Shown here one piece after another: positions 27,425 through 54,332 of a stretch of DNA of 64,000 bases (its first letter is position 1; each line of letters starts with the position of its first letter). A program made the position numbers and the translations under genes. The stretch is taken from positions 1 to 64,000 of the forward strand of contig NZ_PDWR01000019.1 in the NCBI RefSeq assembly GCF_010211755.1. Direction: 5' to 3'. This stretch comes from Pseudoxanthomonas sangjuensis (GTDB lineage Bacteria; Pseudomonadota; Gammaproteobacteria; Xanthomonadales; Xanthomonadaceae). Under the pieces are notes generated by a model. It had not been told where the DNA came from. It was given only the letters and a program-made list of their open reading frames with translations, and did not search any database.

Positions 27425-27934
27425 TCACAGGCCGGCCAGGCCGCGCAGCTTGGCCAACTCGGCGGCGACCGCCTTTTCCATCGCATCGAACCGGCTGGCG
27501 GCCTGCTTGGCTTCCTTGGCGTTGGCGGCGGCCTGCTTGCCGGCGTCGTCGAGGCGCTTGCGCAACTCGCCGTCGTCGGTGGCGAGCTTGCCGACCGCCG
27601 CGCTCTTGATCGCCTTGCCGGCTTCCTTGTCCTGCTCCTCGCGCCGCGCCAGTCCCTCGCGCAGGCGGGTGCCGGCGGCGCGCAGCGCCGAGGACACTTC
27701 GCGTTCCAGGCCTTCGAAACCGTTGGCCGGGACCGGGTCGGCCCGATCCGTGGCGAACTCCGGCGAATCCGGCACCAGCAACACGGTGCCGGCGGCGACG
27801 CGCGTTTCGTCGAGGTGCGGGTTCAGCGACTTGATCCGCTCCAGCGAAACGCGGTCCGGCTGGCCGGCTTTCTTCAGCAGGGTTTCGCCGACGCCCTTGA
27901 GGTCGGTGTCCTGCTTGATCACGAAGATGCGCAT
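27425..27934 (-). CDS. eCIS: LysM-like N-terminus with coiled-coil tail (last gene)
   Basis: A 169-residue protein closing the injection-system operon. Residues 1-60 (MRIFVIKQDTDLKGVGETLL, then IKSLNPHLDETRVAAGTVLLVPD) resemble a LysM-type fold seen in tail assembly proteins. The rest is a charged, Ala/Lys/Glu-rich helical region (KDAGKQAAANAKEAKQA type) that should form a coiled coil. It lies 14 bp after the DUF6519 gene. A LysM-like module is usual in baseplate or peptidoglycan-contacting proteins. The tail could tether the particle or act as a short spacer. It is too short to look like a normal tape-measure protein. Confidence 0.75.
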   Translation of the reverse strand: MRIFVIKQDTDLKGVGETLLKKAGQPDRVSLERIKSLNPHLDETRVAAGTVLLVPDSPEFATDRADPVPANGFEGLEREVSSALRAAGTRLREGLARREEQDKEAGKAIKSAAVGKLATDDGELRKRLDDAGKQAAANAKEAKQAASRFDAMEKAVAAELAKLRGLAGL

Positions 27935-27948
27935 GGCGGTTTTCCTCC

Positions 27949-30900
27949 TCAGCCGATGACGTTCAATGCATCCCACGGCGCGTTGAGCGGCGCGTTGTTC
28001 AGGCGGATCGGCGCCCGGCTCGCGTTGCCGAGCACGGTTGCCGAGTGCGCGGTCAGCGCCGCGCCGATGTCGCCTGTGCCGGCGATGCGGTTCGCCGAGA
28101 ACACCAGCACCGGCGACAGCGCCACCACGCCGGGGAGCCTGCCGGTACCGAGCAGTTCGCAGCGGTTGTCGCTGAACATCACCTCCGCGCTGGTGCGCAG
28201 GTCGACCGCGGGCGCGCCGCCGCGCGCGGCCAGGCTGTTGCCCTTGACCATGGCGATCGACCCGCGTGCCGCTGCGGCCGCCGCCGCGGTCGCGGTCGCG
28301 GCAGCGGCGGCGAGTTCGGGCGCCGCGACGGCGACGTAGGCGCGGGGGCCGGCCATCACCAGCGTACGCCGTTCGTCCAGGCGCACGGTGGTCATGCCCG
28401 CGACATGGGCGACGGCCGTGGTTGCCCGGTTGGTGATGTCGGTGACGGGCGCACGCAGGCTGTCCTGCACCACCAGTGCGTACCATTCGGAATCGTCGGG
28501 TTGCGCCTCGTCGTCGCGGCGCACGCTGTTGCCGGCGATTTCCGCCTGTTCGAACGGCGTCCGCACCAGGATGCCGACGGCGCGCCCGGCGATGCGCAGC
28601 GGCGGGCCGATCCGGCTGACCTCGTTGTCGGCGATGCGCGGGCGCTCGACGCCCGAGGCGATGATCCCGACCGACAGCGCGCGTGCCTGCTGGCTGGTGC
28701 CGATCTCGTGCACCTGGTTGCCGGCGATGGTCGCGCTGGCGGTGCGCAGCACCGAGATGCCGGCGGCGATGCCGGCATCGTTGGCCCGTGCCGCGCCGAC
28801 GATGCCGCGCACGTGGTTGTTCTCGATGCTGGCCGAGTCGGATTCGGCGTCCTCTTCCATCACGATGCCGTTGCCGCAGGCGCTGACGATGTTGAGCTTG
28901 ACGATCAGGTCGCGCACCGGCGCGCGGATGGCGATGCCGGCGCCGCTGAAGCCGCCGACCTGGTTGGCCAGCACCTGCATCTGGTCGACGCCGGCGGGAT
29001 TCAGTCCCGCGACCAGGGCGATGCCGTCGAAGACGCCGCTGCGGCTTTCCGCATTCTGGAACTGCAGCTTGTTGCCGGAAATCCACGCGCCGCCGCGCGC
29101 GCAGGCGATGCCGCTGCCCTGCAGGCCCAGGTTGTTGTCGACGATGTGCAGCGATGCGCCCGGTGCGGCAAGCCCGCCGGTGGCCACGCCGCCGTTGCGG
29201 CAGATCAGCAACTGGTTGGCGGCGATGCGGTTTTCCCACAGCCACGCGACCGTGCCGTCCAGCGCGATGCCGCGGCGCTGGCACGACAGCACGTTGCGTT
29301 CGATCTCCAGCGCGGCGAGCAGGGCGAAGGGCGGATCGTCGCCGCGCTGCCCGGTGTCGGTGCGGATGCCGTCGCTGGCGAGGACCAGGTTGTCGCGGAT
29401 CGCCACGCCGGCGCACAGGCCGCCGAGCGAGATCGCCGCGTTGCGCAGGTCGCTGTTCTGGAATACGAACAGCAGCAGCTCGCGCAGCGCGAGGCCGAGC
29501 ACGGTCCGGGCCTCGATCGCCGATTCGCGGCCCAGCGACAGCACCGCCAGTTTCTCGATCGCGATGGCCATCGCCGATTCGATGCGGAACGCGGCGCCCG
29601 GCGCGGCGATCACCGTGGCGGTGCCCTGGCCGCGGATGGCGATGGAACGCGCGCCGGCGATGCGCACCGGCTCGGACAGCACGTAGTTGCCCGGCTTCAG
29701 GCACACGGTGCCGCCGGTGTCGCGCAGGCGGTCGACCGCGGTCTGGAGGGTGAGCCGGCCGCTGTTGTGGTCTTCCGCGCTGACGCACTGGGTGCAGCCG
29801 CAATCGTCGCCGCCGGAAGGCGGCCACGGGTGCCGGCAATCGGTGATGCCGGTGCCGACGTCCCAGATGCCCAGCCGCGCGTAATGGTGGTGGATGCCGC
29901 GCGGCGGCGCGGCGTCGAGCAATTCGACCGAGGCGTCGGCGGTGCGCGCCGCGAACACCCACCAGTCGCCGCGACGGAAACCGCGCGTGCCGATGCTGGA
30001 AAACGACACGGTGACGCCGCGTTCGAGCAGCAGTTCGGTGCCCGCGGCCGGCACGTCGATCACGCCGGTGGAAGCGGGCGCGTCGAGGTCCTGGACCTGC
30101 ACGGTGTTGCCGCCGGCGCCGGTGCGCAGCACGCGGCCCTTCTGGTCCCAGCGGCGGACGCGCAGGTTGCGCTGCGCCGGCCACGCGCCATCGGGGAAAC
30201 TGCCCGGCAGCATCGCCGCGGGCAGGGCCGGGGCGAACACGATGCGCCGGTTGCTCGGGTCGGGGATGTCGATGCGGCGCATCTCGCCGGGTAGGCCGGC
30301 GAATTCGCGCGCGTCGTCGAGGATCTCGACCCAGTCGCCGTCGGCGAAGCCGAGCACCTCGTCGCGTCCCAGGCTTTCCAGTTCCAGTTCGGTGGCGGAA
30401 ACCACGCTGGCGACGCGCGCGCCGACGCTGGCGTTCTCGCGCGACCACTTGAAGGTGGCGCCGGCGCCGGGCAGACCGGGGTCGTGGATCTCCACGCGGT
30501 ACAGCTGGTTCTCGAGTCCGCGGTAGCCGCCGGTCGGCGGCAGCTCGCACGGGTCCTGCACCGCCGGCACTTCGAAGGTGCCGGTAGTCAGCCGGCCCTC
30601 GCTGGGCGCGATCAGGTCGGCCCAGCCGGGCATTTCGCCGTCGGGCGTGGCGCAGGTCGAACCGGCGCCGGCCTCGGCATCGAGCACGCGCACCTGCCAC
30701 ACCGTCTGCAGGCGCGAACTCGCATCGACGCCGACCGCGCTTTCGACCAGCCCGGGGTTCTCCAGCGCGGTGACTTCGCGCTGCCAGACGTCGAGGTAGA
30801 CGAGGTGGCGGCCGCTGGTCGGCAGCGGCGGCGGTTCCGGCAGGTACGGCTGTGCGCTGTAGCGGACCGCATCGGCGAAGCGCGGTTCGGCCAGCAGCGG

Positions 30901-31194
30901 GTCGAACTCGGCGTCGCCGGCGCCGTGGTTTTCGGCGAGCAGGCCGTCCACGTACAGGCGGCCGCGGCCGATGTCGAGGTCGCCCGGCGCGATGGTGATG
31001 CGGAATGCGTCCGGCGTGGTCTGCGACACCGTGGCGCGACCGAGCACGTCGCTGGCCAGTGCGCGCAGGCGGCGGTCGAGTACCGCCGCCGCTTCGTTGG
31101 CGTCGGCGTCCAGCAGCACGCCGCCCTGTTTGAGTTGCACGCCCGCCCAGTCGAGCAGGGGATCGTGGCGGATGCGCGAGAGATCGGTGGCCAT
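27949..31194 (-). CDS. eCIS: DUF6519 / right-handed beta-helix protein (candidate fibre)
   Basis: At 1081 residues this is the largest protein of the cluster. The N-terminus (SRIRHDPLLDWAGVQLKQGG, then VLLDADANE) is the DUF6519-type module recurrent in contractile injection clusters. The middle holds a Cys cluster (DDCGCTQC, about residue 460). From about residue 490 to 900 there are beta-helix rungs of the pattern ITIxxNxV (SIENNHVRGI, ISGNKLQFQN, IAGNQVHEIG). An Ala run (ELAAAAATATAAAAAAA) precedes the last rungs. Parallel beta-helices are typical of tailspikes, so it may bind target surfaces, taking the place of Afp13. This role is inferred. It starts at ATG 31194 with GGAG 8-9 nt upstream, 17 bp after the gpI-like gene. 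Confidence 0.85.
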   Translation of the reverse strand: MATDLSRIRHDPLLDWAGVQLKQGGVLLDADANEAAAVLDRRLRALASDVLGRATVSQTTPDAFRITIAPGDLDIGRGRLYVDGLLAENHGAGDAEFDPLLAEPRFADAVRYSAQPYLPEPPPLPTSGRHLVYLDVWQREVTALENPGLVESAVGVDASSRLQTVWQVRVLDAEAGAGSTCATPDGEMPGWADLIAPSEGRLTTGTFEVPAVQDPCELPPTGGYRGLENQLYRVEIHDPGLPGAGATFKWSRENASVGARVASVVSATELELESLGRDEVLGFADGDWVEILDDAREFAGLPGEMRRIDIPDPSNRRIVFAPALPAAMLPGSFPDGAWPAQRNLRVRRWDQKGRVLRTGAGGNTVQVQDLDAPASTGVIDVPAAGTELLLERGVTVSFSSIGTRGFRRGDWWVFAARTADASVELLDAAPPRGIHHHYARLGIWDVGTGITDCRHPWPPSGGDDCGCTQCVSAEDHNSGRLTLQTAVDRLRDTGGTVCLKPGNYVLSEPVRIAGARSIAIRGQGTATVIAAPGAAFRIESAMAIAIEKLAVLSLGRESAIEARTVLGLALRELLLFVFQNSDLRNAAISLGGLCAGVAIRDNLVLASDGIRTDTGQRGDDPPFALLAALEIERNVLSCQRRGIALDGTVAWLWENRIAANQLLICRNGGVATGGLAAPGASLHIVDNNLGLQGSGIACARGGAWISGNKLQFQNAESRSGVFDGIALVAGLNPAGVDQMQVLANQVGGFSGAGIAIRAPVRDLIVKLNIVSACGNGIVMEEDAESDSASIENNHVRGIVGAARANDAGIAAGISVLRTASATIAGNQVHEIGTSQQARALSVGIIASGVERPRIADNEVSRIGPPLRIAGRAVGILVRTPFEQAEIAGNSVRRDDEAQPDDSEWYALVVQDSLRAPVTDITNRATTAVAHVAGMTTVRLDERRTLVMAGPRAYVAVAAPELAAAAATATAAAAAAARGSIAMVKGNSLAARGGAPAVDLRTSAEVMFSDNRCELLGTGRLPGVVALSPVLVFSANRIAGTGDIGAALTAHSATVLGNASRAPIRLNNAPLNAPWDALNVIG

Positions 31195-31211
31195 GGCGTG
31201 ACTCCATCAAA

Positions 31212-33326
31212 TCAGGTGACGTGGAAAACGCCCGCGTTCAGTCCGTAACGCAGGTATTCGTCGAGGCGGATGCGCAGGTTGGCTTCGCGCTGCGGCTGCG
31301 ACAGGGCGTGCATGACGCCGATTTCGCCTTCGTCGCTGGCGCCGTGCAGGATTTCCGCTGCGGTGCTGGCGCGCAGTTGCAGGTAGGCCGGCTGGCCGTA
31401 GCGCAGCGAAGCGAAATGCGGGCGCGCATCGCGGTGGTCGGCGTCGGGCAGGCAGCGATGGCGGCGCGGCGCGATCGAATCCGCCGGCAGCCAGCAGAAG
31501 CGCACGCAGCCCTGCTGGGTGCGTTGCGCCCACACCGGCGCGGGCCACGGATCGCCGCCGGCGCGCGCGGCGTGGAAGATGCAGTCCGAGGCCAGTTCGA
31601 TGACCTTCGCCCGCAGCTTGCCGATCACGCTGCTGTCGCGGATGGTCAGCGTGCCGCCGGGCGCGTCGGCGGCGATGCCGGCGTAGGCGGGCGCGGTCGG
31701 CGCGCCGGCATCGACGATGCTGTCGACGATCTCGACCTCGGCGCCGTCGGCGACCTGCAGCGCGCCGACGATGCAGTGTTCGAGCGTCAGCTTCGCGAAC
31801 GGGTGCGCGACGGCCAGGCTCGGCGCACCCGGCGACGCAGCGCCGCCATCCGGATTCAGCGCCAGTCCCGGCAGCAGGGTGCAGTGGCGCAGCACCAGCT
31901 CGCGCGGTTCGTCGTCGGCTGCCGCGGCCAGGGTCAACGCGCCACCGGAAACCACCAGCCCGTCGAGCACCAGCCGTCCGCGCGCACCGATGTCGAGCTC
32001 GATGTCGGCGCCGGCGGCCAGCAGCGGCCGCGCGCCGTTCGCCGCGGCAACGACCACTTCGCGGCCCGCGTCCTGCGGATCGGCCGGCGCATCGACGCGG
32101 AACGCGAAGGGGCCGGCGTAGGTCAGGCTGTCTTCGACCAGCAGGCGCCCGCCGCCGCGGATCGCGTCGAGGTGCGGTTGCAGCGCCGCGGACGCGTTGG
32201 CCGTGTCCTGCATCGCTAGCGTTTCGCCCTCCGGCGTGCGCTCGTACTCGCCGCCGCCGATCGCGCGGGCGAAGCCGTAGCGGAAGGTCGCGCGCAGTTG
32301 CGGGTCGACGCCGGTGCCGAGCACGACGCGGCCGCGTTCCGGGTCGATGGCGATGCGGCCGGCGGGAATCGCGTCCTGGTGGTTCCAGTCGCCGCCGTCG
32401 ACGTCGCGCAGGTCGGCGACCACGATTTCCTCCACCGGCACCGGCTCCCAGTCGCCGGGCTGCGCGCCGGGGCGCAGCAGCACCAGGCTTTCGCCGGGGC
32501 CGTAGTCGTCGCGGCGTTGCGCTTCCGCGGTCGCATCGGGCGCATTCGCCGCGCGTACCGCGGCCGCCATCCCGCGCACGCGCAACGGCGCGGGCACGTG
32601 GACCGGTTCGCTGAGCGTCGCGATCGAGTCCTCGCTGCGCGGCTGGCGGAACAGCGCCAGGTCCGCGCCCAGCGGGTTCAGGCGGAACCGCGTGCCGCCG
32701 GCATCGCCGGGATGCGCCACCAGCGGGATGCCGGACAGGCGCAGCGGCAACAGCCGCCACAGGAAGATGCCGATGTTGGGGATGTTGTAGCGCCCGCCGC
32801 CGCCCCGCGCGCTGCGTTCCGGGCGGCGTACTTCGACGGTGTGCGCGACCGTGTTGAAGGCGCCGCCCAGCGAACGCATCGCCGCCTGCGAACGCAGATC
32901 GGCGGTGGCCAGCGAATGCGGGCGCAGGTGCTTCATGTACTGCGTCGTCGCCAGTTGCTCGAAGAACTCGGCCACGTGCGCCGGCCAGTCGGTCAGGTCG
33001 CGCGCCAGCTGTTCCAGCATCAGCGCGGTGCCCTTGCGCCGGCGATAGGCGATGGTGTTGGCGACCTCGGCGCGCGGCGACGACACCGCGGGACTGGCGC
33101 CGCGCAGCGGGCGGTAGCCGATCAGGTCGCCGATGTAGGGCGCGACCCAGTCCTCGCAGGTCTCGATGAACTGGTCGTCGTAGAGCTGCTCGATGTCCTC
33201 CTCCAGCGCCTCGAGCTCGCGCGCGAACAGCGCCAGCAGCGCGCGCAGCGGCTGGCCGTGTTCGGCATCGCGCTGGCGCTGGACCGCCGGCAGCAGGGCA
33301 TACAGGCGTTCGGCGTCGAGGCTCAT
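31212..33326 (-). CDS. eCIS: phage tail protein I-like baseplate protein with beta-helix extension
   Basis: A 704-residue protein. The first 200 residues (LYALLPAVQRQRDAEHGQPL, LEEDIEQLYDDQFIETCEDW and VAPYIGDLIGYRPLRG) match the tail protein I/Afp-type baseplate family that connects baseplate wedge and fibre. The rest (about 350-600) has short beta-strand repeats such as LVLRHCTLLPGLALN, LTLEHCIVGALQVAD and LTIRDSSVIGK, suggesting a beta-helix. The ATG at 33326 overlaps the previous stop (ATGA). It is likely to hold the DUF6519 fibre protein encoded next. Confidence 0.85.
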   Translation of the reverse strand: MSLDAERLYALLPAVQRQRDAEHGQPLRALLALFARELEALEEDIEQLYDDQFIETCEDWVAPYIGDLIGYRPLRGASPAVSSPRAEVANTIAYRRRKGTALMLEQLARDLTDWPAHVAEFFEQLATTQYMKHLRPHSLATADLRSQAAMRSLGGAFNTVAHTVEVRRPERSARGGGGRYNIPNIGIFLWRLLPLRLSGIPLVAHPGDAGGTRFRLNPLGADLALFRQPRSEDSIATLSEPVHVPAPLRVRGMAAAVRAANAPDATAEAQRRDDYGPGESLVLLRPGAQPGDWEPVPVEEIVVADLRDVDGGDWNHQDAIPAGRIAIDPERGRVVLGTGVDPQLRATFRYGFARAIGGGEYERTPEGETLAMQDTANASAALQPHLDAIRGGGRLLVEDSLTYAGPFAFRVDAPADPQDAGREVVVAAANGARPLLAAGADIELDIGARGRLVLDGLVVSGGALTLAAAADDEPRELVLRHCTLLPGLALNPDGGAASPGAPSLAVAHPFAKLTLEHCIVGALQVADGAEVEIVDSIVDAGAPTAPAYAGIAADAPGGTLTIRDSSVIGKLRAKVIELASDCIFHAARAGGDPWPAPVWAQRTQQGCVRFCWLPADSIAPRRHRCLPDADHRDARPHFASLRYGQPAYLQLRASTAAEILHGASDEGEIGVMHALSQPQREANLRIRLDEYLRYGLNAGVFHVT

Positions 33327-36034
33327 GGCATCGCCTCCAGGTGGTGCAGCGGGCCGGGATGCAGGGTCAGCAGTTCGGCCGGAAGCGGCGTGCCGGCGGA
33401 CACGCGCATGCGCGAGGCGAGCAGGCGCACCTGCCGCGAGACCCCGGTCTGCGCGTGGGGCGCGGTGCCACCGTAGAGTAGGTCGAGGTCGACCGCGACC
33501 ACGCCCGGCACGCCGTGGGCGACGGCGACGACCTCGGATTGCTGCACCGGCTGGCCGAGGCTGCGTTTCGCGAACGAGAAGGCGCTGCGCAGCGCCGCCT
33601 CGACCGCGGCCAGCACGGCATCGCTTTCGTAATCCGGATCGCACTTGACCTTGAGCCCGATCCGGAACGTGCTGGCCTGGTAGCCGAGCAGGCGCAGTTC
33701 CACGCGCGGGTCGCCGTTGGCCAGCAGCGCGTCGCGCAGGTTGCCCCACAGCGGGTTGCCCGGCGAAATGGTCGCGCCGTCCTGCCCGGCGACGGTGATG
33801 CCGATCGCCGGGCCGTGCTTCAGGCGCAACACCGTGGCCTGCGCCTTGGCGATGCCGGCGTAGGCGCGGGCGAAGTCCTCGTAGTCGAGCAGCGACACCG
33901 CGCGGCCCAGCGTGCGCGTGGTCAGCGGGATCGATTCGCGCGCCTGCTCGGCCGGTTCCGGATCGGTGCCGCCCTGCGCCGGCGCCGGGTTGGCGACGCC
34001 CTTCAGGCCGAGCGGCCGCGTCACCGGCTGGGTCAGGGTGTCGGCGCGCACGTTGCCATCGCGGCCGATGCCCTTGCGGTAGGTCGCGCGCAGGTTGTTG
34101 TTGCCGCTGGGCAGGCGCGCGCCGTTGCGGCCGTCGCCGAAGCGCAGCCATTCGCGGCCGGCCTCGTCGGTCTGCAGGGTGAAGACGCGGTCGTTGGCGC
34201 CGGCGCCATACAGGGTGGGGCATTCCTTCCACTCGACGCCGGCGACGCGTACGGTCAGTTCGCTGGCTGCGCCGATCTCGGTCGGCGCGGCGCGGAAGGT
34301 CAGCGGCAGTTGCTTCAGTTCGAAGCGCTGGTGCGCCTGGCTGGCGTCGCCGGAGCCGAGCACCTGGGTGACGGTTTCGCCGTGGCGCGCCAGCGCGACG
34401 TTCGCCGCGACCACGACCGTGTCGCGTTCCAGCTGCACCGGCAGCGGCGGCGCGATGTCCAGGACCGCGTACTTGCCCGCTGCGCGCGCGGGCCCGCTCA
34501 GCACGGCCTGGTGCACGACCGCGGCGCCGTTCGCATCGGCGCCCTGCACGATGATGCGGCGCCCGGCCTCGAGTCCGGCGGGCGGAACCGCGACCGGGAT
34601 TTCATCGTCCTGCACCGCGGTTTCGACCGGGTACTCGGCCAGCGGCAGTTCTTCCGACTGCGCGAACACCTTGGTGGCGCGCACGTAACCGCTGAACAGC
34701 GCGTAGTTGTCGCCGATCAGGCGCAGGCGCGTGGACTTGCCGGAAATCGCGAACTCGTCGCGCGAGACTTCCGACACCGCGCTGGCGCGGTACAGCTCGA
34801 GATAGGTGCCGCCCGGCGCCGGTTCGTTCGGATAGTCGTACTGGCCGCGCGCGAGCACCACGTAACCGCCCGGCGCGATCGCAGGGTAGGCGGCGTCGAG
34901 GTCGACGTGGCCGCCGTTGGAGGTGGGTCCGGCCGGCGAGAGGATGAAGTCGGGCCAGTCGTCGTTGCCCGGGTAGGCGGACAATTCGAAATCGTCGATG
35001 TCGCCGACCACGTCCGCGCCCGTGCCCAGTCTGCGCGCCATGGCGGCCAACGCGATGGGCGAACCCTGGTACGCGCTGCGGAATTCCGCCGGCATCGTCC
35101 GCCACATCGGCGCGTTGTGGCCGAACACCGAGGCGCGCTGGCGCAGCGCGAACACGCGCACGCCGCTGCCTGCCGGGTTCATCGACGGCACCAGCGAGCC
35201 GAGGCCGCGCTTCCATGCCACGTAGGTGCGGTCGCGACCGGCGTCGGCGACGACTTCGCTGAGGATGCGGAAATCCCAGCGGTTGCTGGTGGGGTTCGCG
35301 TCGAACTCGGCGCCGACGATCAGCAGTGCGTCGCCCGGCTTCAGCCCGGTGCGCACGCCCTGCAGCCACGCATGGGTGTCGTGCAGCGCCGGCACGCGCG
35401 GCAGCGACAGCCACGGCCGCATGGCGTTCCACTCCGGGCGCGCGGTGATCGTTTCGACGGTTTCGAAGGTCTGCGGTTTCTCGCCGGGCCCGGGCACGCT
35501 TTGCACCTTCAGGCCGGTGTCGAGCACGACCTCGGCGGGGATGCCGGTGACGAACGCGCCCGGATCCTTCGTCGCGTTGGCCGGCGGCTCGCGCGGCGGT
35601 TCCAGCGCGAACGCCAGCCAGGTCTCGGCGGCGACGCCGGGCCGCAGCCGGTAGCCGATCAGCCGCGCCATTTCCTGCAGCGACACGCGTTCGCCGGCGG
35701 TGCGCAGCCACGATTCGTTGGCGATGCGCTCCTGGTAAAAGCTCAGCACGTCGGCGGCGCAGGCGAAGGCGTCGGCCAGGCCGCGGGCGAAATCGTCCGT
35801 GTCGCGGGTCAGCAGTCTGTCGAGCGGCTTGAATCGCGAATCGGACAGGCCGGCGAACAGGCTGGCGCGGAAATCGGCGTGGTTGCCGATGCGGTAGGCG
35901 ACCGCCGACAGGCCGTGGCGGTTGGCGTGCCGCTGCGGCGTGCTGGCGTCGATGCCTTCGCAGCAGCCGCAGGCTTCGCTGCCGGGCGGCAGCGGCGCGG
36001 CGCGCGCCTTGGCGTCGGGAACGAGTGCGTTCAT
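33323..36034 (-). CDS. eCIS: putative baseplate assembly protein (baseplate J type, Afp12-like)
   Basis: A 903-residue member of the family annotated as putative baseplate assembly protein (TIGR02243-like). Visible segments are LSFYQERIANESWLRTAGER, EMARLIGYRLRPGVAAETWL and the baseplate-J type WLRFGDGRNGARLPSGNNN. The N-terminus has a small Cys motif (EACGCCEG). It forms the wedge or ring of the contractile tail baseplate together with the other J-type protein directly upstream. Start and previous stop overlap by 4 bp, as does its stop with the gpI-like gene. Confidence 0.9.
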   Translation of the reverse strand: MNALVPDAKARAAPLPPGSEACGCCEGIDASTPQRHANRHGLSAVAYRIGNHADFRASLFAGLSDSRFKPLDRLLTRDTDDFARGLADAFACAADVLSFYQERIANESWLRTAGERVSLQEMARLIGYRLRPGVAAETWLAFALEPPREPPANATKDPGAFVTGIPAEVVLDTGLKVQSVPGPGEKPQTFETVETITARPEWNAMRPWLSLPRVPALHDTHAWLQGVRTGLKPGDALLIVGAEFDANPTSNRWDFRILSEVVADAGRDRTYVAWKRGLGSLVPSMNPAGSGVRVFALRQRASVFGHNAPMWRTMPAEFRSAYQGSPIALAAMARRLGTGADVVGDIDDFELSAYPGNDDWPDFILSPAGPTSNGGHVDLDAAYPAIAPGGYVVLARGQYDYPNEPAPGGTYLELYRASAVSEVSRDEFAISGKSTRLRLIGDNYALFSGYVRATKVFAQSEELPLAEYPVETAVQDDEIPVAVPPAGLEAGRRIIVQGADANGAAVVHQAVLSGPARAAGKYAVLDIAPPLPVQLERDTVVVAANVALARHGETVTQVLGSGDASQAHQRFELKQLPLTFRAAPTEIGAASELTVRVAGVEWKECPTLYGAGANDRVFTLQTDEAGREWLRFGDGRNGARLPSGNNNLRATYRKGIGRDGNVRADTLTQPVTRPLGLKGVANPAPAQGGTDPEPAEQARESIPLTTRTLGRAVSLLDYEDFARAYAGIAKAQATVLRLKHGPAIGITVAGQDGATISPGNPLWGNLRDALLANGDPRVELRLLGYQASTFRIGLKVKCDPDYESDAVLAAVEAALRSAFSFAKRSLGQPVQQSEVVAVAHGVPGVVAVDLDLLYGGTAPHAQTGVSRQVRLLASRMRVSAGTPLPAELLTLHPGPLHHLEAMP

Positions 36035-38996: not shown

Positions 38997-39002
38997 CCTC
39001 CT

Positions 39003-39320: not shown

Positions 39321-39321
39321 C

Positions 39322-40958: not shown

Positions 40959-40960
40959 GC

Positions 40961-41308: not shown

Positions 41309-41318
41309 CGTCGGTTCC

Positions 41319-41981: not shown

Positions 41982-41990
41982 GGTCGCGGC

Positions 41991-47052: not shown

Positions 47053-47291
47053 GTTGCCGTCCCCGGCAGCGCGTCCCGCACCCGCGTCTCGATCGCGCCG
47101 GCGGTGGCGTCGAGCCAGCCGGATACATCGCGGCCGGCGAAACCGGATTCCGCGAAGCGCATGGCCAGCGCCTCCTGCAGGCGCGCCTGCAGGTCGCCCG
47201 GCGCGATGCCGTTCGGCAGCACGTCCGCATCGACCAGCAGCCGGCCGATGCGCAGGTGGACCGCGGAAGCGGCGGAACGTTCCCGGTTCAT
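47049..47291 (-). CDS. eCIS: small conserved protein after the ATPase
   Basis: An 80-residue protein, [20 protein letters not shown] to [11 protein letters not shown]. It is predicted to be mixed alpha/beta with an [14 protein letters not shown] strand pair and an amphipathic helix ([16 protein letters not shown]). The ATG at 47291 overlaps the ATPase stop (ATGA), and its stop overlaps DUF4157 protein 1. Tight coupling on both sides and a normal composition argue that it is real. I do not recognise a family and give no function beyond being part of the injection cluster. Confidence 0.75.
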
Positions 47292-49231
47292 CCGCGGCCT
47301 CCGGTCTGCGTGCCCGGGCTGCGTTCCAGCTTGGCCAGTTCGGCGTGCGCGGCCGCGGTCAGGTGGCGTTGCGAGATCGCGGCGTCTTCGTGCGCGGCCA
47401 TGAACGCCGCATTGAGCGCGATGCCGCGGATGTGCCCGCCGGCGAGCTGCAGCCGCGCCAGCGGCTCCCAGCGGATCTCCGGGTCCAGCGGCGCCTGCGC
47501 CGGGAACTGGCGCCGCCACAGTTCGACGCGCGCGGCTTCGTCCGGGAACGGGAACTGCACGACGAAGCGGATTCGCCGCAGGAAGGCCTTGTCCAGCGCG
47601 TTCTTCATGTTGGTGGTCAGGATCGCGAGGCCGCGGTAGGCCTCGATCCGTTGCAGCAGGTAGGCGGTTTCGATGTTGGCGTAGCGGTCGTGGCTGTCCT
47701 TGACCTCGCTGCGCTTGCCGAACAGCGCATCGGCTTCGTCGAACAGCAGCACCGCGCCGCTGGCTTCCGCGGCATCGAAGATGCGCTTGAGGTTCTTCTC
47801 GGTTTCGCCGATGTACTTGCTGACCGTGCTGGCCAGGTCGACCCGGTACAGGTCGAGCCCGGCGGCATTCGCGATCGCCTCGGCGGCCATGGTCTTGCCG
47901 GTGCCGCTTTCGCCGGCGAACAGCGCGGCCAGTCCCAGCCCGCGCGACGAACGCGCGGCGAAACCCCAGTCGCGGTACACGCGGCGCCGGTGCCGCAGTT
48001 GCCGGCCGATGTCGCGCAGCATGGCAAGCTGCGCGTCGGGCAGCACCAGGTCGTCGAGCGTCGTGCCCGAATCGATGCGCTGGGCGAGCGCGTCGAGGCC
48101 GTCGCGGCTGTGTTCGCGCAACGCCCGCCAGGCCTGTTCCGCCGCGCACCGCGGGTCCGGTCCCGCGCCGGCAACCAGGGTGGCGACTTCGTCGAGCGCG
48201 CGCGGGTCGGACAGCGCGAACTGCTCGCAGGCTTCGGCGAACGCCGCGTGCAGGTCGACTTCGTCCGGCGTCGCGCCGAGGCGGCGGGACCGCTGCACCA
48301 GTTCGGCCGCTTGTTCCGCTGGCGTCCATGCCGGCAACGCGATGCGCCGCAGGCGCAGGTCCGGGGCGCTGGCCGGCTCGCCGCCGACCACGACCAGCGC
48401 GCTGCGCAGTCGCGCCTGCACCTGCGCCGGCAGCGCGGCGGGAATGCCGTCGCGCGCGTCGAGCACGACCAGCGCCTGCGACAGCGCCGCTTCGCGGTCG
48501 ACCAGGCGCAGGGTTCGGGCGAGGGCGAGCGGGTCGTCCGGCAGGTCGCGCAGCCACAACGCCGCATGCCCGGTCGCGGCGAGCAGCGGCAGGATCTGTT
48601 CGCGCGTCGGTGCGGCGCCGGGCCGGTGCAACTGCACGCAGTTCGTGCCGCTGGCCAGCGCGGCGACGGCTTGTGCCACCCAGTCGGGTGGCGCGACGGC
48701 GGGCGGCGCCGACACGATCTCGAGCATGCCGTCGAGCCGCTCGTCGATCGCGGCGACGCCGGTCAGGTAGTGCAGCACGCGTTCGTCGATGCGCATCGCG
48801 GCGCGGCTTGGGTTGCCGCCGTCCAGCGACAGCAGCCGCCAGTAGCGCAACGGCGCCTGCGGCGACATCGCATCCCAGTGCGGTTCGCCGGGCAACGACA
48901 TCGCCAGCGAGAACGTCGGCGCACCGTCGGCGTGCCCGCCGACGGCGGCCACCACCCGCGCCAGGTCGGCGTCGAGCGCGGCGCCGGCGCAGAGAAGCAA
49001 CACGTCGCGTTCGAAGCGGCTCAGGCCGAACAATTCGGCGCAGCGCTCCAGCGCCGGGCCGAAATCGACTTCGGCGTCGGCATCGGCTTCGACAAGGTCG
49101 GTCGCTGCCGCATCGCCGGCCTGGAGGCGCTCGATCCGTTCGCGCAATCGCGCGATGCGCGCGACCAGCCAGCGCTGGTTGCGTTCTGCCCAGCTCGGCG
49201 CTTCGGTGGCGATGCGCGTGTGCACGTTCAT
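47288..49231 (-). CDS. eCIS: AAA+ ATPase (Afp15/Pvc15-like)
   Basis: A 647-residue ATPase. The N-terminal half ([20 protein letters not shown]) is an all-helical region found in Afp15-type proteins. The C-terminal AAA+ module shows Walker A GESGTGKT (about 437), Walker [20 protein letters not shown] (about 490), sensor 1 [20 protein letters not shown] with the Arg finger, and an alpha-helical lid. In eCIS this ATPase is needed for assembly or cargo loading. It is not a ClpV disaggregase, because the double-AAA architecture is absent. It overlaps DUF4255 and the 80-residue gene by 4 bp each. Confidence 0.93.
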
Positions 49232-50580
49232 GCCGGCACCGTCAGCCTTTGCGCCGGGTCGAACACCGGTGCCTGTCCTTCCGCGATGACGATCAGTTCG
49301 CTGTCGATGCCGTCCACCCGCAGTCGCACCGGGTAGGTTCCGGCGGCGAGTTCGTCCGGGAAATCGAACACCAGCGGGTCCGCGTCCGCGGAGCGCGGGT
49401 TGGCGTTGCCCTGCGCCGAACCGAGCATCAGCACGGCGCGCTGTTCGCGCCGGACCTGCGGCCGCGAGGCGAGCGTCTCCCGCACCCGCGGCGGCATTGC
49501 GCCGCGCACGACGCTAGCCGCCGGCAGGTTCAGCGGCGCACCGCTGGCCGTTATGACCGGCGCGGCGCTGATCTGCAGCGGTATGGCGTTGCTTTCGCGC
49601 TCCTCGTCCTCGCCGTCGGGCGTCAGCAGCAGGCTCATCGCCCAAGTGCCGGCCGGCCAGTCGGATTGCGCGGCGGGGTCGTTCGGCAGCGCCAGTTCGA
49701 AGCGCTTCCCGGCCGCATCGACGGTCACGGCGATTTCCAGCGGCGTTTCGCGCAGCCGGTGCGCCAGGCGCACGCGCGTGCCGGTACCGGACAGGCGCAC
49801 GCCGGTGACGGTCACGGTCTCGCCCAGCCGCGCGGTCTTCTGCTTGTTCGGCGGCTCGACGCCGAGCAGGGTCGGCGTCGCCGGCAGCAGGTCGGGGTTG
49901 ACCCGCACGCCTTCGTCGCGCTGCGTGTCCTCGTCGACGCGGCCGCGCGACAGCACCGGCAACGGGCTGCGCGCCGGACGCGTGCCTTCGATCAGCACCA
50001 CCGATACCTGGTACGCCGCGGTCGGCCGGTAGTGGCTCTGGATCGCCGACCACAGCTTGCTCATCTCGTCGGTGCCCAGCGCGGCCGGGGTGATCTTGAT
50101 CGCCTCCACCTGGTCGGCCAGGTCCGATTGCGACAGCGCCTGGAACGCGGGCGGCAGCATGCCGACGTTGAGCGGGTTGGAATTGAGCGCGGTGCGGATC
50201 GAGGCGCGGTCCAGCCACGGCCGTTCGTGCAGCACGTGCATCGCGTAGCCGAGCAGGATCTCGGCCTGGAAATCCTCGCGGCCGTAGGCGGTCACCAGGT
50301 AATGCAGGTCCAGCGCCAGCGGCGCGTTGGTGGCGCGTTCGCCGGATGGCGTGCGCGAGGGCAGCGCGGCGTTGCGCCAGCCGCTGTTCGGCGTGACCTG
50401 GTGCAGGAACAGGTTGAGCCGCGGCGATGCGTTGCCGTCGTCGAGGTCGATGGTATCGGGCGCGACCGCGCTGACGCTGACCGTGGTGCCCAGCGCCGGG
50501 ACGGCGCTGGTGATCATCGCGTCGTCGAGCAGGTTGCGCAGCACCGCGCTGACCGCGCCGATGGCCAGCGGCGAGCTCAT
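49228..50580 (-). CDS. eCIS: DUF4255 tail-terminator-like protein with C-terminal Ig-like extension
   Basis: A 450-residue protein. Residues 1-200 match DUF4255 (Afp16/Pvc16 N-terminal region): VSAVLRNLLDDAMIT, NLFLHQVTPNSGWRNAALPS, PLALDLHYLVTAYGREDFQA and HRP-type WLDRASIR, which caps the tail and stops sheath/tube growth. Residues 240-450 add beta-sandwich repeats (TLLGVEPPNKQKTARLGETV, AGTYPVRLRVDGIDSELIVI) that look like IPT/Ig-type domains. Most DUF4255 proteins are about 200-300 residues, so the extension is notable. It overlaps its neighbours by 4 bp. Confidence 0.88.
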   Translation of the reverse strand: MSSPLAIGAVSAVLRNLLDDAMITSAVPALGTTVSVSAVAPDTIDLDDGNASPRLNLFLHQVTPNSGWRNAALPSRTPSGERATNAPLALDLHYLVTAYGREDFQAEILLGYAMHVLHERPWLDRASIRTALNSNPLNVGMLPPAFQALSQSDLADQVEAIKITPAALGTDEMSKLWSAIQSHYRPTAAYQVSVVLIEGTRPARSPLPVLSRGRVDEDTQRDEGVRVNPDLLPATPTLLGVEPPNKQKTARLGETVTVTGVRLSGTGTRVRLAHRLRETPLEIAVTVDAAGKRFELALPNDPAAQSDWPAGTWAMSLLLTPDGEDEERESNAIPLQISAAPVITASGAPLNLPAASVVRGAMPPRVRETLASRPQVRREQRAVLMLGSAQGNANPRSADADPLVFDFPDELAAGTYPVRLRVDGIDSELIVIAEGQAPVFDPAQRLTVPA

Positions 50581-51257
50581 GGCGTCGCCTTCCCCCGCAG
50601 GTAGTCGTGCAGGCTCTGCGGTTCGCGCATCGCCCGCGGCCTCGATGCCGCGGGGGATGGCGCGGCGGAACGCGCGCGCACGTCGATGCGGTCGATGCTG
50701 ACGTGGATCGCCGGTGGCGGGGCGGGGGAGGCGTGTTCCTGCACGAAGCGGGCGACCGTGGCCGGCGAGATCGGTGCGGCGACGGCGGCAATTCCTGCCG
50801 GATCCGCGGAAGGCCGTGCGATGGCCGGAGGGTCGGCCTGCAGTGGTTGTCGAACATCGTCGATGGCGGCGAACGGCGGTTCGGCGACACGGACCGGTGC
50901 CGTCGCGATGCGGGGCGATTGCAGACGTGCCGCGGCCGGCTCGGCGGTCGATGCCTGTGCCGTCGCGTTCGTCTCGCCACGGAGCCGATGCGCAGGCGCG
51001 ACTTGCCGAGGTTGCGATGGAAGCGCGGCGAGCGGCGGCTCGCCCGCAACCGGCGATTGCCGGTGGGCGGTTGGCGGAAGCGCGGGGACGCCCGGGCGAT
51101 CTGCGGCTTCGTCGTGCGCATGCATCGTCGCGCCGTCCTGTGGCTCGATGCCGTCCATGGCGGCTGCCGGGCCCGGCCAGGCCATGGGCCGCAGCGGCGA
51201 TGCCGGCTGCAGGGCATCGGCCTGGCGGGGGGCGGGCTGGCGCAGGAAGTCGGGCAT
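50577..51257 (-). CDS. eCIS: proline-rich linker protein
   Basis: A 226-residue Pro/Ala-rich, mostly disordered protein. The only ordered-looking segment is C-terminal: a helix around VARFVQEHA, then AIHVSIDRIDVRA, ending MREPQSLHDYLRGKA. The pattern (I.I.RI.VRA, Pro/Arg linker, SL.DYLR) recurs, as far as I remember, in small proteins beside DUF4255 genes in similar clusters. It could be a flexible connector or chaperone. It starts at ATG 51257 after a 7-bp gap and its stop overlaps DUF4255. Confidence 0.7.
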   Translation of the reverse strand: MPDFLRQPAPRQADALQPASPLRPMAWPGPAAAMDGIEPQDGATMHAHDEAADRPGVPALPPTAHRQSPVAGEPPLAALPSQPRQVAPAHRLRGETNATAQASTAEPAAARLQSPRIATAPVRVAEPPFAAIDDVRQPLQADPPAIARPSADPAGIAAVAAPISPATVARFVQEHASPAPPPAIHVSIDRIDVRARSAAPSPAASRPRAMREPQSLHDYLRGKATP

Positions 51258-51264
51258 GGCGTCC

Positions 51265-51960
51265 TCAGGCGGCCAGCAGTTGCAGGTAGGCGGCGCGGCG
51301 CATCGGGCCGAGTTCGAGGATGTCGCGCTCGCTCCAGCCGAAACCGCGCGCCAGCGCGGCGATGTCGGACAACAGGCGCTCGACGCGCAGGCGCAGTTCG
51401 CGCCACAGCAGTTCCAGCGGGTCCAGCGGTGCGTTCCAGGTGCCGCCGCAGTCGGGGCAGTGCAGCGAGAACGAGAGCAGCGCGCCGGGCAACAGCGCCT
51501 CCATGCGCCGGCTGATCGCATCGCGCGTTTCGGCATCCGCCGGCATGCCGCCGTCCACGCAGCGGGCCAACAGCGCCTCGGCGAAGGCGTCCGGATCGTC
51601 GAACGCATCCAGTGCATGCAGGTCGGCCGGCACCGGCAGGCGGAAGCGCGGCGTGGCGCCGTTCCCTGCTTCCAGTTCGTGCCAGCGGGTTTCCCCGGCG
51701 TCGTTCCCGGCTGCGTCCTGCGCGAGCGCGCCGGCGTACTGCCCGGCGTCGATCATGAACTCCACCGTCGCGCCGCAATGCGCGCAGTGCCCGACCAGCT
51801 CCGCCGCCGGCCCGAACAACTGCGCGTAGCGGCGCAGTGCCAGCAGGTTGCGTTCCGGCAGCGAGCGCGGCGTGGCGTCGAGCAGCGCCTGTTCGCGTTG
51901 CGCGCCGCGACGGCCGAGCGCGCCTTCCCACATGGCCAGCAGCAGCGCTTCGCCCCGCAT
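51265..51960 (-). CDS. eCIS: zinc-ribbon baseplate-type protein (T4 baseplate-like)
   Basis: A 231-residue protein. The N-terminus is helical (MRGEALLLAMWEGALGRRGA). It carries two CxxC pairs, GHCAHCGATVEF and LHCPDCGGTWNAPLDPLELL, about 110 residues apart, which would form a zinc ribbon. The last part (LLSDIAALARGFGWSERDIL, then ELGPMRRAAYLQLL) has a helical segment typical of T4-type baseplate/assembly proteins placed after tube genes. It starts inside the tube stop (TGATG). I suggest a chaperone-like or baseplate-assembly role by position; the exact T4 counterpart is uncertain. Confidence 0.78.
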   Translation of the reverse strand: MRGEALLLAMWEGALGRRGAQREQALLDATPRSLPERNLLALRRYAQLFGPAAELVGHCAHCGATVEFMIDAGQYAGALAQDAAGNDAGETRWHELEAGNGATPRFRLPVPADLHALDAFDDPDAFAEALLARCVDGGMPADAETRDAISRRMEALLPGALLSFSLHCPDCGGTWNAPLDPLELLWRELRLRVERLLSDIAALARGFGWSERDILELGPMRRAAYLQLLAA

Positions 51961-52484
51961 CAGGCCGGCTCGGTGAAGACCGGCTCGGCCGGTTCGGTGA
52001 CTTCGTAGTCGCGTTCCCAGCCCTCGTTCTCGAGCTTCAGCGTCTGGATCGCGACCGCGTTGGCGTTGGCGTCGAGGTCGGGCAGGGCCTGGTATTCCGA
52101 GACCCAGCAGCGGTAGATCCTGTAGGCCAGCACCAGCTGGCCGGCCTCGTTGTAGACCTCCAGGATGATGTCCTTGCGGAAATCCTTCAGCGAAACCTCG
52201 GCGCCGAGGCCGGAACCGTAGTTCCACACCTTGTTCGCCCACTTCTCGAACTCGGTGTCGTGGGTCACGCCGCGTTCCAGCGTGACCGGCTCGTACTTGC
52301 TGCGCCCGGGCGACTTGCGCGAGGTGCTCGGGTCGCCGCCTTCGCGGTGCTCGACCACTTCGGTGCTGCGCTTGAGCGCCGAGCACTTGCTGATGCCGGC
52401 CACGTAGCGGCCGTCCCATTTCAGCCGGAACTTGAAGTTCTTGTACGGATCGAAGCGCGTCGGATTGACGGAAAACTGGGCCAT
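51960..52484 (-). CDS. eCIS: inner tube protein (Afp1/Afp5, T4 gp19-like)
   Basis: A 174-residue phage-tail tube protein: DPYKNFKFRLKWDGRYVAGI, then KCSALKRSTEVVEHREGGDP, KYEPVTLERGVTHDTEFEKW, and a C-terminal AVAIQTLKLENEGWERD. This is the conserved phage-tail-region family (gp19-like) that forms the hollow tube pushed out by the sheath. Only one such gene is present, while Afp/PVC loci have two or more. The ATG at 52484 lies 13 bp after the sheath stop with GAGGAG-type purines before it. Confidence 0.92.
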   Translation of the reverse strand: MAQFSVNPTRFDPYKNFKFRLKWDGRYVAGISKCSALKRSTEVVEHREGGDPSTSRKSPGRSKYEPVTLERGVTHDTEFEKWANKVWNYGSGLGAEVSLKDFRKDIILEVYNEAGQLVLAYRIYRCWVSEYQALPDLDANANAVAIQTLKLENEGWERDYEVTEPAEPVFTEPA

Positions 52485-52497
52485 GGTCGTTCGCTCC

Positions 52498-54006
52498 TCA
52501 GGCGGCGATGTTGCCGGCGATCTGCTGCAGCTTGATCACCACGAATTCGGCGGGCTTCAGCGGGGCGAAGCCGACGTGGATGTTGACGATGCCGAGGTTG
52601 ATGTCGTTCTGCGTGGTGGTCTCGCGGTCGCACTTGACGAAGTACGCTTCGCGCGGCGTGCTGCCCTGGAACGCGCCCTGGCGGAACAGGTTCTGCATGA
52701 AGGCGCCGATGTTCAGGCGGATCTGCGCCCACAGCGGCTCGTCGTTGGGCTCGAACACCACCCACTGCGTGCCGCGGTACAGGCTTTCCTCGAGGAACAG
52801 CGCCATGCGCCGCACCGGCACGTATTTCCATTCCGAAGCGCGGTCGTTGTGGCCGTGCAGGGTGCGCGCACCCCACACCACCGAGCCGTATACCGGCGGC
52901 GAACGCAGGCAGTTGATCCCGAGCGGGTTCAGTTGCCCGTTCTCGGCGTTGCTGAGCGCCAGCTCCAGTTCCGATGCGCCATTGATCCCGGCATCGATCC
53001 CGGCAGGCGCCTTCCACACGCCGCGGCCTGCGTCGGTGCGCGCATATACGCCCGCGACGAAGCCGCAGGGCGGGAACGGGCGCCTCGCGCCCTGCTTGAG
53101 CGGATCCGGCGAGCGGATCCACGGGTAATAAAGCGCTGCGTAGTTGCCGTCCGTGCCGGCCAGGTCGGATTGCACGTCGGGCATGTCGGCGACAGGCGTG
53201 CCTTCCGGCGCATCGACGATCAGGAAGGCGCGACGTTCGCGGCAGCGCGTCTGCAGCGTCGTCACCGTGTCCGGATCGGTCAGGCCCGGCACGCACACCA
53301 GGTTGAACAGGTCGATGCGGTCGGTTGGCGTACCCAGCCCGAAACTCGCCAGCAGCGCGGTGTGGAAATCGCCGTCGGTAGCGCTCCAGACCACTCCGTC
53401 GCTGCCGCTGTCGGTTCCGTCGAGGTCGGTGGTGCCGTCCGAAGGCGTCGTCGTGCCCGTGGCGTCGACGGTGATCGCCAGCGAACGGCCATTGATCACG
53501 TCCTCGACGAAGCGCGGATCGGTCGGGTCCATCGACAGGTTCTCGAAGGTTTCGACGACGGCGTTGTCGTCGACGGGATCGTCGAGCACCTCCAGCTTGA
53601 AACGCGTGGTGTCGTCCGTGCGTTGGGTGATGCGCACGCGATAGTCGTTGGCCCATGCGCCCGGGGAACTGGCGGCGAAGGACAGGTCGCCGCTGCTGGC
53701 GCCGGCGCTCGCGGCGTTGTCTTCGTCGTCTTCCGCTTCCGTGCTGGCCAGGCGCAACACGTAGGCGTCGCCGCCGCCGTTGTCGAAGAAGTGCTTGACC
53801 GAGTAGCCGAGCAGCGTGCGCAGGTCGAGTCCGCCGAAATGGCGCTCGTATTCCGCGAAGCTGGTGATGCGCACCGCCTTGTCGAGCGGACCGCGGGCGG
53901 CCCAGCCGATGAACAGCGCTATCGACGTCGCCACGCCGGTGATCGTGCGCACGCCGCTGGGGACTTCCTCGATGTAGACGCCGGGGTAGGTGAGAGTCGC
54001 TGGCAT
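52498..54006 (-). CDS. eCIS: contractile sheath protein
   Basis: A 502-residue tail sheath protein. The N-terminus TYPGVYIEEVPSGVRTITGV is the sheath family hallmark, followed by SIALFIGWAARGPLDKAVRI and SYSVKHFFDNGGGDAYVLRL-type core. The C-terminal third is the conserved sheath handle: CGFVAGVYARTDAGRGVWKA, RMALFLEESLYRGTQWVVFE, EPLWAQIRLNIGAFMQNLFR, and AEFVVIKLQQIAG. The middle (about residues 110-330) holds a variable, acidic surface domain. The ATG at 54006 has AAGGAG 9 nt upstream. There is only one sheath gene, against three in Afp. Confidence 0.95.
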   Translation of the reverse strand: MPATLTYPGVYIEEVPSGVRTITGVATSIALFIGWAARGPLDKAVRITSFAEYERHFGGLDLRTLLGYSVKHFFDNGGGDAYVLRLASTEAEDDEDNAASAGASSGDLSFAASSPGAWANDYRVRITQRTDDTTRFKLEVLDDPVDDNAVVETFENLSMDPTDPRFVEDVINGRSLAITVDATGTTTPSDGTTDLDGTDSGSDGVVWSATDGDFHTALLASFGLGTPTDRIDLFNLVCVPGLTDPDTVTTLQTRCRERRAFLIVDAPEGTPVADMPDVQSDLAGTDGNYAALYYPWIRSPDPLKQGARRPFPPCGFVAGVYARTDAGRGVWKAPAGIDAGINGASELELALSNAENGQLNPLGINCLRSPPVYGSVVWGARTLHGHNDRASEWKYVPVRRMALFLEESLYRGTQWVVFEPNDEPLWAQIRLNIGAFMQNLFRQGAFQGSTPREAYFVKCDRETTTQNDINLGIVNIHVGFAPLKPAEFVVIKLQQIAGNIAA

Positions 54007-54011
54007 TGAAG

Positions 54012-54332
54012 CTACTCCTTCGGTTCGGGGGATGTCGTCGGGGCCGGGACGACGGAGTGGATATGGCCATTGCGTTCGCGCGCGTCGTGGTTCGCAACCG
54101 CGCGCGCGTACAGTTCGGTGCCGTCCGGCAGGGCGGTGCAAAGCATTTCGTTGCGTTCGACCAGGTCCATCAGCGCCTCGTGCAAGCGTTCGCGGGTCAC
54201 ACCCTGCAGGTGCGGCGGCAACCACCACCAGCGGATGCCGTCCAGCCCGTCGGCGGCGTTCGGGTGCCGGGCGATGTAGCCGCGCAGCGCGTCGTGGAGT
54301 TCGCCTAGCGACCGCCCTGCGCTTGCCGACAT
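54012..54332 (-). CDS. eCIS: small leader protein before the sheath
   Basis: A 106-residue protein, the first gene of the operon. The core HDALRGYIARHPNAADGLDG, then IRWWWLPPHLQGVTRERLHE and ALMDLVERNEMLCTALPDG, is predicted to be a small helical, winged-helix-like domain. The C-terminus is a charged, Pro-rich tail. It lies about 25 nt after the predicted sigma-54 start site and 5 bp before the sheath gene. I do not recognise the family. A regulatory or capping role is possible but unsupported. Confidence 0.75.
   Translation of the reverse strand: MSASAGRSLGELHDALRGYIARHPNAADGLDGIRWWWLPPHLQGVTRERLHEALMDLVERNEMLCTALPDGTELYARAVANHDARERNGHIHSVVPAPTTSPEPKE

Follow-up and report, generated by a model that had tools for sequence, protein, structure and literature searches.

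We analyzed a window of 64,000 nucleotides from Pseudoxanthomonas sangjuensis, the first part of the 72,403-base contig NZ_PDWR01000019.1 in a genome of 3.29 Mb and 76 contigs. Its gene content points to a real, complete, and apparently intact extracellular contractile injection system (eCIS). We consider it highly probable that this is a chromosomal eCIS of the type with a DUF6519 fiber and a Tail_P2_I adaptor and that it is run by the adjoining gene product g43 through a sigma-54 promoter. The original prediction, made from the letters alone, had described a complete eCIS of 22 genes in one co-directional run. This was borne out: 22 minus-strand genes span 27425-54332, with intergenic spacings of -58 to +17 bp and nine 4-bp overlaps. 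The genes are those called by our own codon-usage gene caller, trained on the window, plus g38b (50577-51257), which the caller missed and we read by eye. The sigma-54 module had gone unnoticed, and it is the part of this locus worth following.

A predicted sigma-54 promoter and putative activator upstream of the operon

The module and the first operon gene are as follows.

54647..55672, minus strand: g43, sigma-54-dependent activator (bacterial enhancer-binding protein), 341 amino acids (PF00158, E 2.6e-61; PF25601; PF02954)
54368..54383, minus strand: -24/-12 site of sigma-54 type, TGGCATGGACCCTGCT, matching 10 of 12 consensus positions, between g43 and g42 and 51 bp before the g42 start
54012..54332, minus strand: g42, predicted small winged-helix protein, first gene of the operon

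g43 has an AAA+ sigma-54 interaction domain, a lid, a Fis-type helix-turn-helix, and a GAFTDA loop, and Pfam recognized no sensor domain in it. The genome also contains rpoN. The -24/-12 sites were scored against a 12-position consensus, with a threshold of at least 10 matches. A first-order Markov control put the chance rate per 300 bp at 0.018 for sites with at least 10 matches and at 0.0025 for those with at least 11.

To see whether this site matters, we used g42 as a marker. Of 398 genomes searched in the order, 45 carry it, and 27 of these also belong to the 40 that are positive for the spike (E of at most 1e-30). Pvc16_N was present in 36 of the 45, within 6 kb of g42 in 30 and separated from it by contig ends in 3 more. 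The upstream DNA was read for 40 of the other 44 genomes and for the window. Of the 30 Pvc16_N-linked loci, 29 have a site with at least 10 of 12 matches within 130 bp upstream of g42, and in 26 of these 29 it is at 40 to 60 bp. Such a site also precedes g42 in all three loci split by contig ends and in two of eight loci without Pvc16_N nearby. Luteimonas kalidii and Luteimonas saliphila likewise carry a -24/-12 site before g42. A g43 homologue is upstream in 26 of the 30 eCIS-linked loci, 3 of these being partial matches at the edge of the stretch.

These observations suggest how the operon might be controlled. Expression would be all-or-none, with the sensor-less g43 remodeling sigma-54 RNA polymerase at the -24/-12 promoter and so turning on the 22-gene operon. 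As the product of the first gene, g42 could serve in feedback or as a co-regulator.

Among the titles that our literature searches returned, none deals with an eCIS under sigma-54 control, although supplementary tables could describe one. A 2023 review states that how eCIS clusters get switched on remains unclear (PMC10598620). The accessible text of a 2021 eCIS survey contains neither "Sigma54" nor "RpoN"; the regulators that it names are GerE-type, BTAD-type genes, and RfaH (PMC8213781). In the accessible part of an account of type VI secretion systems (T6SS) of Xanthomonadales, sigma-54 is named for T6SS only (PMC6653060). Another paper from these searches, PMC10599522, does not treat the control of eCIS.

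The predicted particle and its candidate cargo

Domains were assigned with Pfam and NCBIfam. PHROGs was run for ten cluster proteins and gave matches, mostly weak, for four. The remaining operon genes, in the order of transcription, are these.

52498..54006, minus strand: g41, sheath (PF04984, PF17482; PDB 8bky, E 3.3e-86)
51960..52484, minus strand: g40, inner tube, gp19 family (PF06841, E 1.1e-46; AlgoCIS and tCIS tube proteins in PDB)
51265..51960, minus strand: g39, four-cysteine protein resembling a T4 gp26-type baseplate hub assembly protein (AlphaFold2 model)
50577..51257, minus strand: g38b, low-complexity, linker-like protein (from its sequence; homologues in both Luteimonas clusters)
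49228..50580, minus strand: g38, cap/terminator, Pvc16_N (DUF4255) with a C-terminal extension (PF14065, E 3.6e-49, residues 9-210 of 450)
47288..49231, minus strand: g37, AAA+ ATPase (Pvc15-like) with an N-terminal winged helix domain (PF00004, PF22977)
47049..47291, minus strand: g36, small protein (homologues only in the two Luteimonas clusters)
44920..47052, minus strand: g35, cargo candidate, eCIS_core (DUF4157) near the N terminus (PF13699, E 4.5e-28), C-terminal region without an assigned family
43358..44923, minus strand: g34, cargo candidate, eCIS_core (PF13699, E 6.2e-33) and a second HExxH domain, peptidase M91-like (PF14891, E 8.6e-6; HEMGH at 285)
41991..43415, minus strand: g33, cargo candidate, eCIS_core (PF13699, E 1.3e-28) and a C-terminal HExxH (HEVGH at 336; PF07737 only below cutoff)
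41319..41981, minus strand: g32, tube initiator/adaptor of the CIS_tube family (PF19266, E 1.2e-9)
40961..41308, minus strand: g31, tail protein X/LysM-type adaptor (PHROG baseplate wedge, E 2e-4; 2 of 13 family members match Phage_tail_X)
39828..40958, minus strand: g30, hub, gpD-like N-terminal half of VgrG (family profile against PDB, best E 3.2e-15 to the hub part of solved VgrGs)
39322..39831, minus strand: g29, spike (OB fold and needle, gpV-like), C-terminal half of VgrG (PF04717, E 1.6e-20; solved VgrGs from residue ~385 on)
39003..39320, minus strand: g28, PAAR-like tip (PF05488, E 3.5e-4, below the curated cutoff)
38622..38990, minus strand: g27, gp25 baseplate wedge (PF04965, E 5.8e-17)
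36031..38625, minus strand: g26, baseplate-J protein (TIGR02243, E 1e-85; PF04865 in the baseplate-J pair; Streptomyces coelicolor baseplate J chain 9gtp, E 3e-10)
33323..36034, minus strand: g25, baseplate-J protein (TIGR02243, E 1.6e-71)
31212..33326, minus strand: g24, Tail_P2_I/Mu gp48-like fiber adaptor (weak alone: Mu gp48, E 0.0053, below cutoff)
27949..31194, minus strand: g23, candidate tail fiber, DUF6519 (eBAP5) anchor and right-handed beta-helix (PF20129, E 2.9e-41; PF13229, E 3.7e-8)
27425..27934, minus strand: g22, small protein, LysM-like or coiled-coil-like by impression from its sequence, last gene (homologues in L. kalidii, L. saliphila, and KLAP34)

Most of the component list in the original prediction was recovered. 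Pfam and NCBIfam recognized the sheath, tube, spike, gp25, two baseplate-J, DUF4255, ATPase, DUF4157, and DUF6519 proteins, and the hub was recognized through a family profile. The PAAR and gpI-like assignments fall below cutoff when the window's proteins stand alone. g30 alone has no Pfam match, and 1 of 14 members of its family matches Phage_GPD. In the g24 family, 3 of 15 members match Mu gp48 (PF10076) and 2 of 15 match Tail_P2_I (PF09684), the window's g24 itself having only the subcutoff Mu gp48 match. VgrG is split here, because g30 corresponds to its hub half and g29 to its spike half. By family, g32 is a second, tube-like adaptor beside the single gp19-family tube g40. The fiber gene g23 comes after the baseplate genes g24-g27 in operon order, and a PDB sequence search returned no solved relative of g23 or g24. 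Pfam, NCBIfam, and PHROG gave no family match for g22, g36, or g38b.

Nor did g39 match a named family in Pfam, NCBIfam, or PHROGs. Its AlphaFold2 model, built from 29 sequences, has a mean pLDDT (predicted local distance difference test) of 94. The model had no PDB match at an E of 0.001 or less. It had 31 matches at that threshold in BFVD, a set of viral models, the best being a T4-like baseplate hub assembly protein (E 3.2e-8, template modeling [TM] score 0.47). From this model we read g39 as a probable gp26-like hub-assembly factor. A g39-homologous open reading frame (ORF) was extracted from 31 of the 35 sheath loci described below.

Established biology of contractile injection systems (CIS) suggests how these parts would work together. 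A sheath-tube stack would be built on a baseplate of hub, wedge, and spike (g24-g32, with g39 as the hub-assembly factor) and capped by g38. The ATPase g37 might help to load the eCIS_core proteins g33-g35 as cargo, and the beta-helix fiber g23, held by the adaptor g24, would bind the target surface. Contraction would then drive tube, spike, and cargo into the target.

The three eCIS_core genes are placed between the ATPase and CIS_tube genes, and the second HExxH motif occurs in two of their three products (g33 and g34). DUF4157 marks toxins (PMC8213781), and in AlgoCIS such proteins are carried as tube cargo (PMC8894135). The structural genes are 45 to 95% identical to those of the Luteimonas clusters, except for the small or low-complexity g36 and g38b (33 to 39%). 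For the candidate cargo, L. saliphila has counterparts of g34 at 65% and g35 at 44%, and L. kalidii has little beyond eCIS_core domain matches. A steady machine with apparently variable cargo fits the published view of DUF4157 proteins as cargo (PMC8894135).

One part of this region is less secure. The codon usage of g34 turns noncoding-like over its last ~120 codons (43358-43760), with a drop near 43753, and the gene overlaps the next by 58 bp. Therefore, the g34/g33 boundary is uncertain. Relatives of g34 end at about residue 400, near the codon-usage drop. A frame change or misassembly at the 3' end of g34 is possible, and the true start of g33 may be further upstream than called.

Relatives, known systems, and competing explanations

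A sheath scan of a genome collection yielded 35 loci, the nearest being those of L. kalidii and L. saliphila at 76 to 77%. We extended 12 for full gene-order comparison (8 Pseudomonadota, 3 Bacteroidota, and 1 Cyanobacteriota), and 15 structural genes (g23-g32 and g37-g41) were collinear in all 12. All 19 noncargo genes have homologues in both Luteimonas clusters, with g22 only partly seen in L. saliphila. Closely similar sets occur on plasmids of Streptomyces anthocyanicus, Streptomyces europaeiscabiei (second half inverted), and Paracoccus pantotrophus. DUF6519 was present in all 24 genomes searched from the 35 loci; this was a genome-level test, and the match in genome G048 is not obviously in the same cluster. 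DUF6519 has been described under the name "eBAP5" as a fiber anchor of eCIS; it occurs in 658 eCIS genes, frequently together with beta-helix tips and Tail_P2_I adaptors (PMC12923769). The novelty of the gene set that had been implied is not supported, given this collinearity, the plasmid sets, and the published class: judged from gene content, the cluster belongs to a known kind of eCIS and its gene set is not unique. One of the sheath relatives (L029) is on a metagenome contig labeled as a Bordetella parapertussis metagenome-assembled genome, probably a mislabeled bin.

In a sheath tree of 38 rows, the window groups with the two Luteimonas sequences (100/99) inside a 30-row clade (100/99); several reference sheaths are on long branches, and the tree program flagged their placing as uncertain. 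The clade leaves out Streptomyces clavuligerus, Deinococcus, Haloferax, Afp, and four other reference rows. Among solved sheaths, S. coelicolor Cis2 (8bky) comes closest to that of the window, at 293 bits. The S. clavuligerus sheath, which is outside the clade, matches 8bky at 886 bits. Therefore, the solved Streptomyces particle falls outside the window's clade, and we found no solved particle within it. The related claim, that no particle with this exact gene set has been characterized, stays plausible, since the nearest solved sheath is distant and the adaptor and fiber lack solved relatives. On the sequence comparisons, this is a widespread, structurally unsolved eCIS class with a sheath clade apart from the S. 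coelicolor-type, haloarchaeal, and Afp references.

Its distribution is patchy. In the window's genus, a sheath match was found in 3 of 38 genomes including the window's own, the other two being 43 to 45% identical over half of the protein. The window's flanking genes had no match in the stretches taken from Luteimonas genomes. This pattern is consistent with horizontal transfer or repeated loss.

The closest published description is that of the eBAP5/Tail_P2_I class (PMC12923769), which has a DUF6519 fiber with a beta-helix C terminus downstream of a Tail_P2_I-like adaptor and baseplate-J genes; the window has such a fiber downstream of its baseplate-J genes and of the putative adaptor g24. 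The class is described as largely without Afp12 homologues. The window has two TIGR02243 baseplate-J proteins, either of which might correspond to Afp11 or Afp12. No sigma-54 module was seen in the accessible account of the class. S. coelicolor CISSc (subtype IId; 8BKY, 9GTP) has the nearest solved sheath and shares a single-protein cap, an AAA+ ATPase, gp25, and a sequence-related baseplate-J. However, its sheath is outside the window's clade, and it has two tube homologues, a fused VgrG (643-residue chain 9gtr_q), and no fiber (PMC10066040, PMC12237407), whereas the window has one gp19-family tube, a split VgrG, and the DUF6519 fiber. AlgoCIS (subtype Ib) also has one sheath gene, and its cargo proteins Cgo1 and Cgo2 are DUF4157 proteins, but no DUF6519 is reported for it in the text accessible.

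Afp/PVC (subtype Ia) resembles the window in overall eCIS architecture, Pvc16_N, and ATPase. It has several sheath genes, of which the Serratia record shows three in a row, and its sheath is distant from the window's (139 to 157 bits). In Afp/PVC, hub and spike are fused and the fiber is of a different kind. The differences from Afp/PVC listed in the original prediction were upheld, except that "one tube gene" applies to the gp19 family only, g32 of the CIS_tube family being a second, tube-like protein.

Several findings weigh against a sigma-54-run eCIS at this locus. With its 10 of 12 matches, the window's own -24/-12 site ranks with the weaker sites, and the 64-kb window contains six others of the same score. 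One of the 30 linked loci has no site, 4 of 30 have no recognized g43 in the fetched stretch, and g42 was not seen in 13 of the 40 spike-positive genomes of the order. Crenothrix has g43 and g42 without the site, and a Burkholderiales contig reaches only 9 of 12. The -24/-12 and g43 counts are not independent, because the loci are related. The other named loci, which lack g43 and g42, have only scattered 10/12 matches upstream of the sheath; therefore, the switch is linked to a lineage and is not general to this eCIS type. Finally, no lysis gene was seen among the scanned window genes and Streptomyces CIS act inside the cell, which weighs on the word "extracellular."

This last point also favors the best-surviving alternative, an intracellular CIS like that of S. 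coelicolor, in which the particles are retained by the producing cell and lyse it under stress. Cis2 is the nearest solved sheath, and DUF6519-type clusters are found in Streptomyces too. We nevertheless regard this explanation as unlikely. The window has a candidate fiber in g23, with DUF6519 and a beta-helix, whereas CISSc has none (PMC12237407); VgrG is split rather than fused; and Cis2 groups with the sheath of S. clavuligerus. Among the 22 genes we recognized no CisA-like membrane protein, although no search with a CisA model was made.

A further alternative leaves the eCIS in place but assigns g43 to the neighboring nitric oxide reductase gene norB (56096-58420), which is directly upstream on the same strand. 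norB is often under the control of the sigma-54 activator NorR. However, g43 lacks a recognized sensor domain, and homologues of g43 and g42 precede the sheath gene in L. kalidii, L. saliphila, and Dyella choica. The window flanks, including norB, were unmatched in the stretches taken from these three species. We rejected this assignment as improbable, because in other genomes the eCIS keeps g43 and g42 beside it, and the stretches taken from those genomes gave no norB match.

We give almost no probability to the idea that the cluster is an R-type tailocin or the tail of a decayed or domesticated prophage. Every component does descend from contractile phage tails, and the separate genes for hub, spike, and tail X recall P2-like phages. 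However, Pvc16_N, eCIS_core, and the AAA+ ATPase mark an eCIS (PMC8213781), the frames are open apart from the g33/g34 boundary, gene order is conserved, and none of 423 matching phage records covers at least 80% of the sheath (best, 76% at 32% identity). In line with the original prediction, no capsid, terminase, integrase, or lysis family was recognized among the window genes given to Pfam, flanks included; this set covers the window except for five ORF calls that were small or weak, and the last 8.4 kb of the contig lie outside it. T6SS membrane-complex genes were likewise absent from this set. The flank gene content and the phage-record search led us to reject a phage relic.

By their Pfam families, the scanned flanking genes are housekeeping or metabolic. 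On the far left are genes for HlyD, two resistance-nodulation-division (RND) transporters, and TraB-like, hydrolase, TetR, acetyltransferase, and deiminase-like proteins. Nearer on the left are cmk, rpsA, lolA, polysaccharide genes, and genes for an HU/IHF-type protein, a LapB-like tetratricopeptide repeat protein, an MgsA/RarA-type ATPase, and a CMAS methyltransferase. On the right are norB, a flavin adenine dinucleotide (FAD) oxidoreductase gene, nadA, and an SCP2 protein gene. Ribosomal protein S1 of this genome shares 89% identity with its counterparts in two Luteimonas species and 82% with the one in D. choica, which most likely places the host near Luteimonas within the Xanthomonadales. 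Two called ORFs beside housekeeping genes (14472-14804 and 61948-63114) had no Pfam match. Elsewhere in the genome, far from the eCIS, a lone Pvc16_N gene encoding 174 amino acids lies between zipA and ligA (contig C11, 169301-169825), and no second eCIS cluster was seen around it.

Related activator/winged-helix pairs at T6SS loci

Some T6SS are sigma-54 controlled through a VasH-type activator. The window resembles them in that a dedicated sigma-54 activator adjoins a contractile system. It differs in that the target here would be an eCIS and in that the -24/-12 site before g42 is missing from the T6SS-linked copies.

Two such copies were observed. In genome G282 (locus L197, 1447-8204), a related activator/winged-helix pair stands directly before genes for VipA/B, Hcp, TssE-like, and TssF proteins, which were identified with Pfam. 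In genome G127 (locus L196), a related pair is followed by homologues of the VipA/B, Hcp, and TssF genes of G282, identified with tblastn. Neither has a -24/-12 site before the g42 homologue, and neither has one with 10 or more matches before vipAB. The four g43 copies that have neither an eCIS nor a site beside them branch together with 100/100 support; all are labeled T6SS in the tree, and the T6SS link was verified for G282 and G127 only. No T6SS gene was found in the 9.9 kb examined for the activator copy in G394. Among the eCIS loci, architectures differ, with Pvc16_N directly after g42 in some and about 4 to 5 kb away in others.

We lean toward the broader view that the contractile injection systems of Xanthomonadales are, as a class, governed by a portable cassette of a sensor-less sigma-54 activator and a small winged-helix protein, and that this cassette has been recruited by more than one eCIS architecture and, in a sister branch, by T6SS. 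If this is true, then the cassette makes production of contractile weapons a sigma-54 all-or-none decision.

With this cluster, a widespread eCIS class for which we found no solved particle gains a representative that is compact and apparently intact. Its switch offers a concrete, testable answer to the question of how some eCIS clusters get turned on. A conserved sigma-54 promoter with a dedicated activator would allow particle production to be induced or shut off in cultured Luteimonas or Dyella species.

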